The notes under the pieces: generated by a model
What the model saw: the letters and a program-made list of their open reading frames with translations, nothing else
What the model was told of the DNA's origin: nothing
The model's database searches: none
Shown here: one piece after another, positions 1 to 44,152 of the stretch
Position numbering within the stretch: position 1 is the stretch's first letter
Layout of the letters: each line of letters begins with the position of its first letter
Assembly: GCA_001797675.1 (NCBI GenBank)
Contig: MGQB01000001.1
Coordinates: 62,001 to 126,000 of the forward strand
Direction of reading: 5' to 3'
Length of the DNA: 64,000 bases
Source of the DNA: Deltaproteobacteria bacterium RBG_13_43_22
GTDB taxonomy: Bacteria > Desulfobacterota > RBG-13-43-22
Position numbers and translations under genes: made by a program

Positions 1-999
1 GCGGCCATCATCCCTTCCCTGCTCTACTATTTCGGTCTGTTTGTGCAGGTGGACGGTTACGCCGCCAAAACCGGCCTAAAAGGATTGCCCCGGGATGAGC
101 TCCCGTCTTTCTGGCAGGCGCTTAATAAAGGATGGTTTTATATGTTTGCGTTTGTCATTTTAATATATTTTCTCTTTTTTAAGCGGCTTGAGGCCCAGGC
201 GCCGTTTATAGCCTCGGTGGCCCTTTTGATGCTTTCACAGATTCGAAAGGAGACCCGATTCAATTGGCGCACGTTTGTCGATTTTCTGGAAAAGACATCC
301 CGCGTGATATCCGAGATCGCCGGTATTTTGGCCGCCATTGGTCTGCTGATCGGATCGCTGCTCTTGACCGGAATGGCTCAGACCCTGTCGTCGAGCCTCA
401 TCGAGCTGGCGCGGGGGAATCTGTATCTGCTCGTGGCCTTCGGCGCCATCGCCAGCTTCATTCTCGGTATGGGGCTGACCATAACCGCCTGTTATCTGCT
501 GCTCGCGGTCCTTCTGGCCCCGGCCCTTGAGCAGTTGGGGCTGTATATTGTGGGCGTTCATCTGTTTTTGATGTACTGCGGAATGCTGTCGTTTATCACC
601 CCGCCGGTGGCCATCGCCGCTTATGCGGCGGCGTCGCTTGCGGGAGCGTCTCCGATGAAGACCGGATTCCAGGCGTGTCGAATGGGCATCATCTTGTTTG
701 TCTTGCCGTTCTTTTTTGTTTTCAACCCCGCCTTTGTGCTCCATGGCTCCACTACCGAGATAATTAACGTCGTGGGCACCGGATTTCTCGGCGTTGCCCT
801 ATTATCCTCGGGCGTAGAAGGGTACCTTGTGATCGTCGGCCTGTTGCACGGCATCAGAAGACTGTTGTGCATTGCGGCAGGGGTGCTTCTGTTGATGCCG
901 GGCATGACGACCAACATTGTAGGAGTTATTCTGGCTTTGATCGTCATTATGGGAAAGTTTTTTACCAAAACACCGGAATCAATCGAAGTGGAGACATAA
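1..999 (+). CDS. TRAP transporter fused permease, C-terminal part (5' end outside window)
   Basis: The reading frame is open from base 1, so the gene starts before the window. The visible 332 residues are very hydrophobic, with about eight or nine membrane segments, and contain the permease-like stretches GMGLTITACY and FITPPVAIAAYAAASLAG typical of the large (DctM) half of TRAP transporters. The visible part and its tail resemble the 4TM/12TM fused permeases that work with TAXI-type binding proteins. Such transporters take up organic acids across the inner membrane using a sodium or proton gradient and a periplasmic binding protein. The binding protein is not visible and would be expected upstream. 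A strong terminator follows the stop codon, so this is the last gene of its operon. The substrate cannot be inferred. Confidence 0.9.
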   Translation, partial: AAIIPSLLYYFGLFVQVDGYAAKTGLKGLPRDELPSFWQALNKGWFYMFAFVILIYFLFFKRLEAQAPFIASVALLMLSQIRKETRFNWRTFVDFLEKTSRVISEIAGILAAIGLLIGSLLLTGMAQTLSSSLIELARGNLYLLVAFGAIASFILGMGLTITACYLLLAVLLAPALEQLGLYIVGVHLFLMYCGMLSFITPPVAIAAYAAASLAGASPMKTGFQACRMGIILFVLPFFFVFNPAFVLHGSTTEIINVVGTGFLGVALLSSGVEGYLVIVGLLHGIRRLLCIAAGVLLLMPGMTTNIVGVILALIVIMGKFFTKTPESIEVET

Positions 1000-1020
1000 C
1001 CCTGGTCGACTAAACAGTTT

Positions 1021-1060
1021 ACGGGAAGGACATGTTACGGGTCCTTCCCGTTTTTTCTTT
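1021..1060 (+). terminator. Rho-independent terminator after TRAP permease
   Basis: A 10-bp inverted repeat (1021-1030 and 1041-1050, arms ACGGGAAGGA and TCCTTCCCGT counted with one base of shift) is followed directly by a T-rich run at 1051-1060. It lies 22 bases after the stop of the permease gene. Confidence 0.88.
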
Positions 1061-1552
1061 TCCTCTCTTTTTCCAATCTTTTTTGACATTGCGACCGCTA
1101 TCCGTCAGGTACAACAACCTGAGATTCCGGGGACACATGAAATGGACAAGGGGAAAAAGGGGTCAAATTGAGTGAAGGGGTTACCCAATAAAAGGCCACT
1201 GTCAAGAGGAAAAGGTTGCCCGTTGCAAGAAAGTGCAATTTTTTTTTTGCAGAACATGGTCGTGTTTGAACGGCCTCGAGGTTTGCAACGTCTTTACCCC
1301 TGCGGTGTATTTCAGATAGGGCAGATTGCTGGCGTCGTCCTGTTGCCGCATTTGAACATTTTGCTGCATCCGTCTCTATAACTAAATTTTAGAGCGTCCC
1401 TACTATTTCATTTTACATTTCATTGAGCACTAAGAAAGGCACTAAGAAAGGCAGGGTTCTGAAACGGATCCTGCTTTTCTTACTTTTCCACCGGAAATCA
1501 TCAAATAGGATTTTCAGCTTTCTTCCCCTTGCCTTCCTTCTTGTTTTTCCTC

Positions 1553-24418: not shown

Positions 24419-25006
24419 ATGAGAAGACCTATTAATTTCAGTTTGATGATCCTGGTTTTAATGCTGACGATGACCGGGTGCGGTTATAACACCATCCAGA
24501 CCAATGAAGAAGCGGTCAAAGCCGCCTGGGGGGACGTGGAGGCGGCTTATCAACGCAGAAACGACCTGATCCCCAACCTGGTCGAAGTGGTTAAAGCCTA
24601 TGCCAAGCACGAAAAAGAGACCTTGACGGCCGTTACCGAGGCCAGGGCCAAAGTAGGTTCGATTCAAATGAACAAGAACCTGTTGGAAGATCCGAATGCC
24701 TTCAGTCAATTCCAGGCTGCCCAGGGAGCTATGAGCAGTGCCCTGTCCAGGTTGATGGTGGTCGTGGAACGATATCCGGATCTGAAGGCCAACCAGAATT
24801 TTCAGGACCTGCAGCACCAATTGGAAGGTACGGAAAACCGGATCAATGTGGCTCGGACCCGATACAATAAGACTGTTGAGGTCTTTAACGGTTCCATCCG
24901 GGTTTTTCCCAATAACCTGACCAATAAATTTTTATTAGGCTTAAAACTTAAAGAGCCTTTTAAGGCCGAAGCCGGGTCGGAAAAGGCACCGCAGGTTAAA
25001 TTTTAA
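24419..25006 (+). CDS. LemA family lipoprotein
   Basis: A 195-residue protein. The ATG at 24419 is best spaced from GGGAGG; a GTG one codon earlier is an alternative. The signal peptide ends at a lipobox (LTMTGC), so the mature protein is a lipid-anchored, largely helical LemA protein: [43 protein letters not shown] and [10 protein letters not shown] are family hallmarks. The function is unclear; in many bacteria it is encoded with TPM-domain proteins. Here two TPM-domain genes follow, giving a lemA-TPM-TPM operon. Confidence 0.93.
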
Positions 25007-25122
25007 AATCAATGGATTCAAGGATTCGAGGGGCCAAGGATTCAAGTGATAGAAGCCTTGAGGCACAAGACCCAAGGAAAAATAGCAGACTTGGACCCAT
25101 TTTTTGGATTAATGTGTGCCCG

Positions 25123-25986
25123 ATGAAAAAAATCTTTTTTATCTTCTCATTGCTTCTTTTCAGCCTCACTTCTGTAGTCCGAGCCCTGGAGGTGCCCTCC
25201 CTCCGGGGTTATGTAAATGATAATGCCGGGATGATTTCTCCGGCGCACAGAGATCGCCTGGAGGAAGAATTAAAAGCTTTTGAACAATCCGATTCCACCC
25301 AATTGGTCATTCTGACCGTTCCCAGTCTGGAAGGAGAACCCATCGAAGCCTTCAGCATCCGGGTTGGGGAAACCTGGAAGATCGGACAAAAAAACAAGGA
25401 CAACGGGATCATCGTTGTCGTTGCCAAACAGGAACGCAAGATACGGATCGAGGTCGGCCGCGGCCTGGAAGGCCGGTTGACGGATTTATTGGCTGGAAGG
25501 ATTATTGACCTGGTCATAACCCCCCGATTCAAAAGAGGGGATTTTGACGGCGGGTTTCAGGCCGGGATTTCCGCCCTGATCGATGCCACCCGGGGGGAAT
25601 TCAAGGCCGATGAAGGGCAAACCGCAAAAAAAAATAATGGGGTCCCATCATTCTTCACTTTTCTTATCGCCGGGTTTGTAGCCCTGTTATTTATTGGAAG
25701 CATTTCCCGTATTTTTGGAGGTATTGCCGGGGCCGTTGGGTTGCCGACCTTGATTGATTTGGGTCTTTTTCCTTTAGGGATTGTTGGTTTGATCCTTGCC
25801 GCCCTTGCCGGGTTGGGAATAGGCATGTTTCTGCCGTCCCTTTTTTCCGCTTCAGGGGTGGGGAAGGGAGGCGGATTCTGGTCTGGTGGCGGATTTTTCC
25901 CATCCGGCGGCGGTGGGGGATTCGGTGGAGGTTTCAGCGGCGGAGGCGGAAGTTTCGGCGGGGGCGGATCCTCAGGGAGCTGGTGA
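25123..25986 (+). CDS. TPM-domain membrane protein (YgcG-like) with glycine-rich tail
   Basis: A protein of 287 residues. The start at 25123 (MKKIFFIFSLLLFSL) gives a good signal peptide; the frame upstream to 25012 is repeat-like sequence. The TPM domain (about residues 25-175) has VNDNAGMISPAHRDRLEEELKAFE, VGETWKIGQKNKDNGIIVVVAKQERKIRIEVGRGLEG and an RGDFDGGFQAGI region. Two or three membrane segments follow, and the C-terminus ends in a long Gly/Ser-rich tail (GGGGGFGGGFSGGGG). TPM proteins are linked to membrane-protein quality control and phosphatase-like folds; this one's role is unknown. It is in the lemA operon. Confidence 0.92.
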   Translation: MKKIFFIFSLLLFSLTSVVRALEVPSLRGYVNDNAGMISPAHRDRLEEELKAFEQSDSTQLVILTVPSLEGEPIEAFSIRVGETWKIGQKNKDNGIIVVVAKQERKIRIEVGRGLEGRLTDLLAGRIIDLVITPRFKRGDFDGGFQAGISALIDATRGEFKADEGQTAKKNNGVPSFFTFLIAGFVALLFIGSISRIFGGIAGAVGLPTLIDLGLFPLGIVGLILAALAGLGIGMFLPSLFSASGVGKGGGFWSGGGFFPSGGGGGFGGGFSGGGGSFGGGGSSGSW

Positions 25987-26108
25987 TTTTGATTTCGGAT
26001 TGGAGATTTCAGAGTGCAGATTGAAAACAAAGGGAAAGCGAAGAATGTCAAGTTTTGAGTCAAGGGTTTGGAGTTTGGAGAAAAAAGTTGATAAATTCGG
26101 TTGAAACT

Positions 26109-26738
26109 ATGAAAGCGGCCACATTTTTCACCCATGAAGAAGGGGAACAGATCAAGACCACGACTCATTCGGTGGAATCCCGGACCGACGGAGAGATTGC
26201 GGTGATGGTGGTGGACCAAAGCGATCAATATCGGGAAGCAGAGATCCTGGGGGGAGTCATCTTCGGAAGCCTCCTTTCCCTGGTAATCTCGGTTTTATTC
26301 TTTCATGAATCCCTTCATGCTTACATCCCTTTAAGCTTCGGCCTCTTTTTTCCTTTTTGGTGGATTGGGGCCAAATTCCCCCGGCTGAAACTGGTTTTTA
26401 TCGGACCGCGCAGAAAAGAAGAAACCGTTCGGCAGAGGGCCATTCAGGCCTTTTATGAAAAAGGGCTTTATAAAACGAGATTCCATACCGGCGTCCTGAT
26501 TTTCCTTTCTTTGCTGGAACACAAGGTTTGGGTTTTGGCCGATGAAGGCATTTATGAAAAGATGAACCAGGAAACCCTGAACCGGTTTGCCCAGGATGTC
26601 TCTCTGGGTATTAAAGAAGGCCGGCCCTGTGAGGCCCTCTGCCAAGCGATAGAAGGGATCGGCCGGCTGTTGATCGAACACTTTCCCATCACTCCTGGAG
26701 ACATAGACGAACTGCCGGATGAAGTGATGACTGAATAG
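26109..26738 (+). CDS. TPM-domain membrane protein, second paralogue
   Basis: A 209-residue protein. The start at 26109 (MKAATFFTHEEGEQI) is used; a longer frame from 26055 lacks a ribosome site. It shows the cytoplasmic-type TPM arrangement: VESRTDGEIAVMVVDQSDQYREAEI, two membrane segments (SLLSLVISVLFF and LSFGLFFPFWWIG), then RAIQAFYEKGLYKTRFHTGVLIFLSLLEHKVWVLAD and GLNRFAQ-type helices. It lacks a glycine-rich tail. It follows the first TPM gene by 122 bases, in the common lemA-TPM-TPM arrangement. Confidence 0.9.
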   Translation: MKAATFFTHEEGEQIKTTTHSVESRTDGEIAVMVVDQSDQYREAEILGGVIFGSLLSLVISVLFFHESLHAYIPLSFGLFFPFWWIGAKFPRLKLVFIGPRRKEETVRQRAIQAFYEKGLYKTRFHTGVLIFLSLLEHKVWVLADEGIYEKMNQETLNRFAQDVSLGIKEGRPCEALCQAIEGIGRLLIEHFPITPGDIDELPDEVMTE

Positions 26739-26753
26739 AAATAAGGAGGAGCT

Positions 26754-27170
26754 ATGGATTACCTGCAAATAACCGCACCCTGTGGGATTGACTGTTTTAA
26801 TTGTCCGATGTACCTGGCCAAAGACAACCAGGACCTGCGGACGAAGATTGCTCAGAATATGGGGATTCCTTCGGAAAAAGCGGTTTGCCAGGGATGCCGT
26901 GCGGAAAAAGGAACCATTGCCTTTCTGAACATGACCGAACCCTGTAATGTCTATCGATGTATTGAAAAGAAGGATCTTGATTTTTGTGGTGACTGCTCCG
27001 ACTTCCCCTGCGATCATCTCCATCCCTATGCCGATATGGCCTCGCAGCGCCCGCACAATACAAAAGTTTTTAATCTGTGTTTGATTAAAAAAATGGGGGT
27101 GGACTCGTGGGGAAAGACCAAAGCCAAAGACGTAAGGGACACATACTTTAAAGGGAAGTTTAAATTATAA
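26754..27170 (+). CDS. Cysteine-rich DUF3795 protein
   Basis: A 138-residue small protein starting behind AAGGAGG. It is rich in cysteine pairs: APCGIDCFNCPMYL, VCQGCRAEKG, CNVYRCIEKKDLDFCGDCSDFPC. These fit DUF3795, a family of presumed metal- or iron-sulfur-binding proteins of anaerobes with no known reaction. It is 15 bases after the TPM gene and eight before the HAD gene, so it may be part of the same transcript. No membrane or signal segment is seen. Confidence 0.88.
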   Translation: MDYLQITAPCGIDCFNCPMYLAKDNQDLRTKIAQNMGIPSEKAVCQGCRAEKGTIAFLNMTEPCNVYRCIEKKDLDFCGDCSDFPCDHLHPYADMASQRPHNTKVFNLCLIKKMGVDSWGKTKAKDVRDTYFKGKFKL

Positions 27171-42673: not shown

Positions 42674-44044
42674 CTATTGCCTGTTGCCTGTTTTTCTTTT
42701 AAGCAGATTGGCCGCAATCAACAAGGGATCCCAAACCGGACTGAAAGGAGGGGCATAGGCCAGGTCTAACCTGGAAATGGCCTCCAGGGTCATCCCCTGA
42801 TGAAGGGCAACAGCCAGGACGTTGATCTTGCGGGCTTCTCCATCCCTTCCGATCCAATTGCCGCCAAGAAGTCGGCCTGATGATTGATCGGCCACGATCT
42901 TCAATAGAGTCGGACTGGCCCCCGGATAAACCCCCGCCCGGGAGGTGCCTTCCACAATCTGAGTTATTACCGGGAAACCCATTTTTTTGGCCTGAGCCTC
43001 ATTAATCCCGGCCATACCGATTTCCAGGCCGAAAATCTTCACACAGGCTGCCCCAACGATCCCATGAAATTCAGAATGGCCTCCCATGGCGTTTTCGCCG
43101 GCCACCCTCCCCTCCTTATTGGCCACATCTCCCAAAGGGACCAGGGTTGGTTGTCCGGTCACCCGGTGAAGTTTCTCACAGCAATCGCCGGCGGCCCAGA
43201 TATTGGGCTCACTGGTCTGCATCAGGGAGTTGACCTGAATCCCTCCGGATTTTCCAACGATAATCCCTGCTTCACGGGCTATCTCGGAGTTTGGGATTAC
43301 TCCAACCCCGACGAAAAAAAGATCGGCAGAAAAAACCCCTTGATCGGTCACTAATTGTTGGGCTTTTTGCCCGTCCGTTTCGAAAAACCGGGGTTGAACT
43401 TCACCCAAATAACGCACCCCGCGGTCTTCCAATTCCTTGACAATAATCGGCCCCAACTCCGGTTCCAACCCGCTGTAAGGAAATTTGCCCCGATAGAGGA
43501 GGGTGGTCTCGATCCCTCTATCCCGCAAGGCCTCGGCTACTTCCAGGGAAATATTACCGGCCCCGACAATCACCGCTTTTCGAGGATTATATCGGTCTAT
43601 AAAATTTCGAATCCTTAGGCCGTCCGACATCTCTTTTAAAGTGAAGATGTTCCGGGCCTCTTCTCCCGGGATACCAAGCTTTCGAGAACGGGCCCCGGTG
43701 GCCAGAATAAGTCTATCATAAGGAAGAAAAAATTTTCCCCCTGTATCCGAAGAGAAGACCCGCACCCGGTTTTTTTCGGGATCTATAGCTAGGACCTGGT
43801 GCTTAAGCTTGATTGCTATCCCCTGCTTCTCCTGGAATTCTTCCGGGGTCCTGGCGATTAACTTATTATGATCCTTGATTACATCCCCGATGTAATAGGG
43901 AAGGTCTCAGGCCCCATAGGAGATAAACTCCCCCTTTTCCAACAGAGTGATACCGGCCTTCGGGTCTTTTCTTCGAGCCGTACTGGCCGCTGTCGGACCG
44001 GCTGCTGATCCCCCTATGATGACCAACTTGAGTTCATTGCCCAA
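42674..44044 (-). CDS. CoA-disulfide-reductase-like flavoprotein, selenoprotein (in-frame TGA at 43909-43907)
   Basis: A 456-residue flavoprotein if the TGA is read through. A TTG start at 44044 follows GGGAGGGG. The FAD site IIGGSAAGPTAAS lies near the N-terminus. The TGA at 43909-43907 is residue 46, in FISYGA-U-DLPYYIGD, exactly where CoA-disulfide reductases have catalytic cysteine (SYGACGLPY). The frame is open on both sides, so selenocysteine is the simplest reading; a frame beginning only at 43765 would lose the FAD-binding N-terminus. A second nucleotide site (AVIVGAGNISLEVAEALRDRG), AAGDCCEK and a C-terminal dimer domain follow. There is no rhodanese domain. Expected activity is NAD(P)H-dependent reduction of a disulfide or persulfide, or of a peroxide. 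Neighbours give no further clue. Confidence 0.86.
43873..43904 (-). promoter_or_regulatory. Predicted bacterial SECIS element (CoA-disulfide-reductase-like gene)
   Basis: Read on the minus strand: ATTACATC (43896-43889), loop GGG (43888-43886) and GATGTAAT (43885-43878) form a perfect 8-bp stem, and the outer pair CCTT (43904-43901) and AAGG (43876-43873) close an internal bulge. The loop begins 18 bases after the TGA with G, the same geometry as at 5147-5177. Confidence 0.72.
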
Positions 44045-44152
44045 AGTTTTACCCCTCCCTTTGTTCGAAAATAGGGTTTAAGATTTTTAACTTCAACGCC
44101 TTTCACTTGAATCCTTTTTCAGGCCGCTTGGTGCCCTTGGGCATAAGGATTT

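Follow-up and report, generated by a model that had tools for sequence, protein, structure and literature searches.

Introduction

Does the in-frame TGA of a flavoprotein gene from Deltaproteobacteria bacterium RBG_13_43_22 specify selenocysteine (Sec) at the redox centre, and what would the resulting enzyme reduce? The gene lies in a 64 kb stretch of DNA, hereafter the window, and its protein family is not new to selenoprotein catalogues. FAD-dependent oxidoreductases of the CoA-disulfide reductase and NADH oxidase kind (COG0446/TIGR03385) are a listed selenoprotein family with WP_011365774.1 as an example (PMC9312934, PMC13188914; cited, like all papers here, from excerpts), and the first of these sources gives the family the status of predicted. 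A Sec NADH oxidase of Geobacter metallireducens was listed in a 2006 paper (PMC1794560), and a Sec NADH oxidase also appears in an ocean metagenome survey (PMC2398784). The Sec motif published for the family is UGxP (PMC13188914, a 2026 review). A sequence-only reading of the window, which had first drawn attention to the TGA, mentioned Sec variants of related families in anaerobes. The statement falls short of the record, as this very family has been listed since 2006 (PMC1794560).

Purification of a Sec enzyme of the CoA-disulfide-reductase family was not among the results of our literature searches, which had wider aims than this one point. Because the family is already listed as a predicted Sec family, the window gene adds a well-supported member of a known predicted kind. 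What the comparison of sequences contributes beyond this is a predicted Sec-dominated subfamily with motifs other than UGxP, probable Sec-to-Cys reversions, and a relative (L116) encoded beside what appears to be a Sec-peroxiredoxin gene.

Results and discussion

One TGA in an otherwise open reading frame

With TGA translated as U, the 456-codon frame contains a single TGA, preceded by 45 codons and followed by 410, exactly as had been counted from the sequence at the outset (Table 1). Under genetic code table 11, the only open reading frame extends over 42674..43765 and encodes 363 residues from a GTG start, so that the predicted truncation to 43765 is what a standard annotation gives. Such an annotation yields a product devoid of the FAD-binding start and the redox centre, and 52 relatives bearing TGA in the same column would be exposed to the same mis-annotation. 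In the Pfam search, the Pyr_redox_2 and Pyr_redox_dim matches together lie within residues 6-437, and Pyr_redox_2 alone (residues 6-296) spans the TGA residue. The sequence-only reading had placed the FAD motif upstream of the TGA, and a later start would lose the beginning of the FAD-binding region.

Table 1. Coordinates of the predicted selenoprotein gene, its elements and one related locus
Feature	Position	Strand	Basis
Gene for the predicted selenoprotein (Sec46, 456 residues), a flavoenzyme of the FAD/NAD(P)H disulfide-reductase type	42674..44044	-	sequence, AlphaFold2 model
UGA codon, residue 46, read as selenocysteine, catalytic-cysteine column	43907..43909	-	92-row alignment
TTG, candidate start	44042..44044	-	earliest start codon in the open frame under the ORF rule
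Probable ribosome-binding site GGGAGGGG, 7 nt 5' of the TTG	44052..44059	-	inference from sequence
Cys288-Cys289 pair in GDCC, of which Cys289 is characteristic of the window's clade	43178..43183	-	alignment column counts
Predicted SECIS hairpin of 8 bp with a GGG loop (43886-43888) that lies 18 nt from the UGA	43878..43896	-	A1 columns 14-32, 98.8% of cells paired, compensatory change in 3/8 pairs
L116, predicted Sec peroxiredoxin gene	212-919	+	frames, TGA placement
L116, FUR-family gene	1011-1472	+	frame
L116, predicted Sec flavoenzyme gene	from 1504	+	frames, TGA placement

Comparison of the window gene with its five close relatives gave dN/dS values of 0.11-0.16 upstream of the TGA (four unsaturated pairs, the pair with L106 being saturated) and 0.10-0.16 downstream, which indicates that purifying selection acts on both sides of the TGA. 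The window as a whole gave no Rfam match at the gathering threshold and no ARAGORN match. Further frames of at least 150 codons with one or two TGAs also occur in the window; judged by eye, they are frames continuing beyond a normal stop, upstream extensions, or pairs of adjacent genes joined into one.

The TGA occupies the catalytic-cysteine column

We sampled 395 genomes from the phylum, 389 of which contain some homologue at E 0.001, and aligned 92 distinct rows after dropping 6 of the 98 taken. The catalytic column holds TGA in 53 rows and Cys (TGC or TGT) in the other 39, so that all 92 rows carry one or the other and the proposed placement of the TGA at the catalytic cysteine is upheld. 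In pairwise alignments, residue 46 matches the Cys of the SYxxCxLPY type in 6ruz, 6pfz and 3cgb, and by the offset of the structure chain it falls on Cys43 of the CoA-disulfide reductase (CoADR) of Staphylococcus aureus, for which the C43S mutant has been deposited as 4eqx. The five closest sequences, with identities of 81, 76, 69, 68 and 63%, all carry TGA. Additional TGAs within the aligned pieces are confined to the edges: L195 has one at residue 2, and L173, L185, L193 and L196 have theirs at or adjoining the C-terminal end. A TAA in the match of L123 and a second TGA in that of L129 both lie outside the aligned pieces.

The window protein shares its enzyme family and the Sec with the published Sec subfamily, but differs from the UGxP motif (PMC13188914) in reading UDLP, with Pro at +3 and no Gly after U, and its clade has an additional Cys in the GDCC motif. 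In all 33 Sec rows of the window's clade, U is followed by E, P, S, D or L and never by Gly (0/33), whereas Gly takes this position in 40 of the 54 rows outside the clade. The Cys289 column likewise separates the two sets, with C in 30/33 Sec rows and 5/5 Cys rows of the clade as opposed to 6/54 rows outside. The sample reveals many Sec members in the phylum and a motif wider than the published UGxP.

These observations bear on the possibility that the TGA is a true stop, with either a shorter protein translated from the GTG at 43765 or a pseudogene as the outcome. The table 11 frame is compatible with the shorter protein. However, a start after the TGA would cost the protein its FAD-binding start, purifying selection acts on the residues that precede the TGA, and TGA is kept at the same column of an open frame in 52 further genes. 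Both the truncated start and the pseudogene were rejected on the selection before the TGA and on the 52 further genes, and we regard a true stop as very improbable.

A conserved hairpin follows the UGA

A predicted SECIS hairpin, absent from the sequence-only reading, follows the UGA. Among the 33 Sec rows of the window's clade, all eight pairs can form in 30 rows and seven of the eight in the remaining 3. The share of paired cells (98.8%) exceeds the shuffled mean of 95.3%, and none of 500 shuffles was as high (31 distinct rows, the shuffles ignoring kinship between them). Both sides change together in three of the eight pairs, and the second pair from the base switches from U-A to C-G in 12 rows. 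The register is specific, as sliding the stem by 1-3 columns leaves only 13-67% of cells paired. RNAalifold, run with no structure supplied, returned the same stem with a consensus energy of -7.06 kcal/mol. The count of further pair types showed no excess over shuffles among the 31 distinct clade Sec rows.

The hairpin is woven into the YYIGDV codons, and its loop is GGN across the clade. Stem changes accompany conservative residue choices, mostly TAT with Ile and TAC with Val or Ala. The stem positions are free of silent changes among the six closest sequences; the whole-gene silent differences amount to 0.54-0.77 per site. The protein motif itself appears to favour the paired pattern in part: all Cys rows taken together average 4.8 of 8 pairs, and one of them (L130) reaches 8/8.

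The bacterial SECIS model describes a loop of 3-9 nt, a stem of 4-16 bp, a G in the first two loop bases and a distance of 16-37 nt from the UGA, together with an energy at or below -7.5 kcal/mol (PMC13188914). The window hairpin fits the model as excerpted in spacing, in the G of the loop and in the lengths of loop and stem. Against the energy bound, the 8-bp stem reaches -5.7 kcal/mol alone and -8.8 kcal/mol in a 40-nt piece with three extra lower pairs, and the consensus given above lies slightly short of it. Moreover, the minimum-energy fold of a 58-nt piece is another hairpin (-11 kcal/mol, z -0.70) that does not include the conserved stem. Owing to this other fold and the marginal stem energies, the case for a SECIS is one of comparison rather than of energy. 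Judged by that comparison, the hairpin constitutes the strongest evidence for the predicted Sec insertion.

Outside the clade, the remaining 20 Sec rows can form only 3-6 of the eight pairs and would therefore need other hairpins. By eye, three of them (L182, L194 and L196) seem to have different hairpins with a GGUC loop after the UGA. The type of SECIS may thus differ between Sec lineages of one family.

The genome encodes most of the selenocysteine machinery

The assembly of the window's genome comprises 3.23 Mb in 39 contigs and is 85% complete. Of the four sel genes that the sequence-only reading had named as a check, three are present: selA (622 bits), selC, the tRNA-Sec gene (74 bits; identified by ARAGORN as tRNA-SeC with anticodon tca), and selD (390 bits), which has its own in-frame TGA in the context AAGUASK. 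The genome also encodes a formate dehydrogenase alpha subunit (FdhA) with one TGA, scoring 863 bits, over the cut-off, across profile positions 1-672. The fourth gene, selB, gave no match over the cut-off in this 85%-complete assembly, and was found over the cut-off in 33 of the 39 genomes searched, including both other genomes of the same genus. Intact EF-Tu is likewise missing from the assembly, which contains only end pieces of it at contig ends, and the Lon protease that is encoded beside selB in genome G047 has a best match of only 52% identity here. We infer that the missing selB reflects a gap in the assembly.

A few other loci were seen in the course of these searches. In the window's genome, C21:17824-18579 and C1:338670-339638 match the formate dehydrogenase family with one in-frame TGA each and are possibly further selenoproteins, and a second match to the tRNA-Sec model at C23:96695-96770 (47.2 against a gathering threshold of 47) is probably an ordinary tRNA. 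Contig C31 of G047 (24601-26837) carries, in addition to the main selA and selB of that genome, another selA (493 bits) with a partial match to selB (278 bits) directly behind it; it represents either a second Sec locus or contamination, which is estimated at 8%.

Reading of the TGA as another residue, for instance Trp by suppression or in a changed code, is hard to reconcile with Cys as the residue at this column in every one of the 39/92 non-TGA rows, or with the conserved SECIS-like hairpin and the sel genes, and we consider it very unlikely as well, having found nothing in its favour. A sequencing or assembly error, which the sequence-only reading had itself raised and for which TGA lies one base away from TGC and TGT, was rejected as the least probable of all, since the TGA is conserved in other genomes, with the same TGA and hairpin in two genomes of the same genus (81 and 76% identity) and two of the same family (69 and 68%).

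The outcomes that the sequence-only reading had named as refuting it, namely a genome devoid of sel genes with no Cys or Sec aligned to the TGA in homologues, or an assembly error, did not materialise. Sec insertion at this UGA is therefore the reading that we retain; the comparison predicts it almost with certainty, and the production of one full-length selenoprotein from the gene is, on the same comparative grounds, very probable.

Selenocysteine is the likely ancestral state of the clade

On the tree of all 92 rows, the Sec/Cys label needs 9 changes, 5 of them forced by strongly supported branches, as compared with a mean of 29.9 for shuffled labels. In a more careful 50-row tree rooted on 12 chosen outside rows, the window gene belongs to a fully supported group of six rows, all Sec, within a clade of 38 rows, 33 with Sec and 5 with Cys (support 100/100). 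The five Cys rows (L143, L159, L161, L180 and L168) branch from within the Sec rows at two well-supported places. The simplest reading of this topology is that Sec was ancestral in the clade and that two Sec-to-Cys reversions took place.

In terms of the sequences compared, the five nested Cys members serve as a natural control for the hairpin. They have 5-7 of the 8 pairs, and the 75% of cells that are paired among them represent no clear excess, as 78 of 500 shuffles were as high. The genome of L143 (G205, 97% complete) has no selA match, and selA is present in the genomes of the other four, namely G310 (L159), G130 (L161), G346 (L180) and G030 (L168). One of the two apparent losses thus falls in a genome lacking a selA match, and the other in a genus of which the sampled genomes retain selA. 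G030 encodes both a Sec copy (L165) and the Cys copy (L168), on different contigs.

Sec-to-Cys substitutions are described as rare and as documented mainly for FdhA and SelD (PMC13188914), and 33 Cys-to-Sec events, more than twice the Sec-to-Cys count, have been reported (PMC1794560). For NADH oxidase, the first table of the latter paper apparently records a single change from Cys to Sec, none in the opposite direction, and one loss in sister species of Geobacter metallireducens, if the meaning of its columns is deduced from their totals. The nested Cys members with their decayed hairpins look like further Sec-to-Cys cases.

Taken together, we lean towards a joint reading in which the phylum harbours a large and deep Sec-dominated subfamily with its own signature, ancestral Sec, at least two losses to Cys accompanied by decayed hairpins, and a peroxide-defence cluster at L116. 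The signature, held with the same moderate confidence as part of this reading, would consist of mostly U-[EPSDL]-x-P, the extra Cys in GDCC and an 8-bp SECIS with a GGN loop. If true, the subfamily offers a natural series on the advantage of Sec over Cys in a flavoenzyme with a single centre, and matched Sec/Cys pairs could be assayed side by side.

Fold and enzyme family

The best NCBIfam match of the window protein is TIGR03385 (CoA-disulfide reductase), covering the complete profile (1-439 of 439) with 422.4 bits against a curated cut-off of 578.8. With this score below the cut-off, the name CoA-disulfide reductase is not established for the enzyme, while the fold group is clear. The AlphaFold2 model has a mean pLDDT of 94.2. 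Its best structural match is 6ruz (Z 50.8, rmsd 1.5 over 440 residues, 40% identity), followed by enzymes from Pyrococcus horikoshii, Archaeoglobus fulgidus and Bacillus anthracis with Z 49.9 to 48.8. FAD, NAD and dimerisation domains are all present, and the redox centre is aligned to the catalytic Cys of the CoA-disulfide-reductase fold group. Sequence, model and fold comparison support the prediction that the product has the fold of pyridine-nucleotide disulfide oxidoreductases of this group.

The NADH-dependent CoA-disulfide reductase 6ruz is the closest solved structure by sequence (343 bits) as well as by fold, and both proteins end in APPF, but 6ruz has Cys at the redox centre where the window protein has the predicted Sec. 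The two positions for which we assume a role in S. aureus CoADR are Tyr361 and Tyr419, which we take to be active-site tyrosines (mutants 4eqr and 4eqs) and whose place in our alignment we likewise assume. Column 430 is Tyr in all 92 rows. Column 372, presumably aligned to the other S. aureus Tyr, is Val in the window protein and Tyr in 11/33 clade Sec rows and 31/54 outside rows.

CoA-disulfide and persulfide reductases use one catalytic Cys beside FAD and reduce di-, per- and polysulfides (PMC7969121, PMC6026696). The CoA-disulfide/polysulfide reductase of P. horikoshii (5l1n, 4fx9) has such a single-Cys centre, Cys48, beside FAD (PMC6026696). By chain offset (model residue 3 corresponding to chain residue 5), the predicted Sec46 falls on its residue 48, which is Cys in that enzyme; its substrate preference cannot be transferred to the window protein without assays. 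The NADH-dependent persulfide reductase Npsr (6pfz and 3nta, Z 49.5 and 40.3) shares the FAD/NAD fold and differs by an extra rhodanese-like domain, about 100 residues long, at its C-terminus (PMC7969121), whereas the chain of the window protein stops at residue 456 and gave no Pfam match to a rhodanese domain at E 0.001.

Possible mechanism and substrate

By the conserved hairpin and the sel genes, SelB would bind the hairpin just 3' of the UGA and deliver Sec-tRNA to it. The product is best read as an enzyme that uses NAD(P)H and FAD and has selenocysteine as its redox centre. By analogy with the CoA-disulfide-reductase group, NAD(P)H would reduce FAD and FAD would in turn reduce the centre at residue 46. 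The selenol(ate) could then attack a substrate at sulfur or oxygen, and the resulting selenenyl-sulfide or selenenic acid would be re-reduced; Cys288 or Cys289 might serve as a resolving partner. The substrate would most likely be of the thiol/persulfide type, comprising CoA or other low-molecular-weight disulfides or persulfides, to which we assign roughly an even chance.

The same selenoprotein could instead serve in peroxide defence through a selenenic-acid cycle, either as an NADH peroxidase-like enzyme or as a reductase that recycles peroxiredoxin. Evidence in its favour comes from the related UETP subclade of 11 rows. In three of its 11 loci (L116, L117 and L119), a FUR-family gene immediately precedes the flavoenzyme gene on the same strand, at a distance of 26-35 nt from the aligned start, and two of the 11 have a peroxiredoxin gene nearby, located before FUR on the same strand in L116 and downstream on the opposite strand in L121. 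The L116 peroxiredoxin has an in-frame TGA at the place of the peroxidatic Cys (TFVUPTE, compared with TFVCPTE in L121) and is open only if this TGA is passed, which places two predicted selenoprotein genes together at this locus. The cluster of Sec peroxiredoxin, FUR and Sec flavoenzyme suggests a two-selenoprotein peroxide-defence unit and strengthens a peroxide-linked role in the UETP subclade. NADH peroxidase also shares the fold (1npx, Z 45.8).

However, the neighbours of the window gene encode a peptidase S41, a divergent polysaccharide deacetylase and a B12 radical SAM protein, with neither FUR nor peroxiredoxin among them, and give no functional clue. The active-site His of NADH peroxidase, which we take to be His10 at an assumed place in the alignment, corresponds to Ala14 in the window protein and to Ala in 91 of the 92 rows. 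Furthermore, NADH peroxidases score only 168-174 bits, as opposed to 343 down to 230 bits for CoA-disulfide reductases. A peroxide-linked role is a real possibility that we hold to be less than probable, and the reduction of low-molecular-weight disulfides or persulfides is narrowly favoured over a peroxide- or peroxiredoxin-linked role.

The gene neighbourhoods of the relatives are diverse: the 79 neighbouring frames of 23 relatives are mixed, with the commonest families occurring in 3-4 of the 79. At the two UETP loci with FUR besides L116, the FUR-family gene lies 35 nt (L117) and 26 nt (L119) from the aligned flavoenzyme start.
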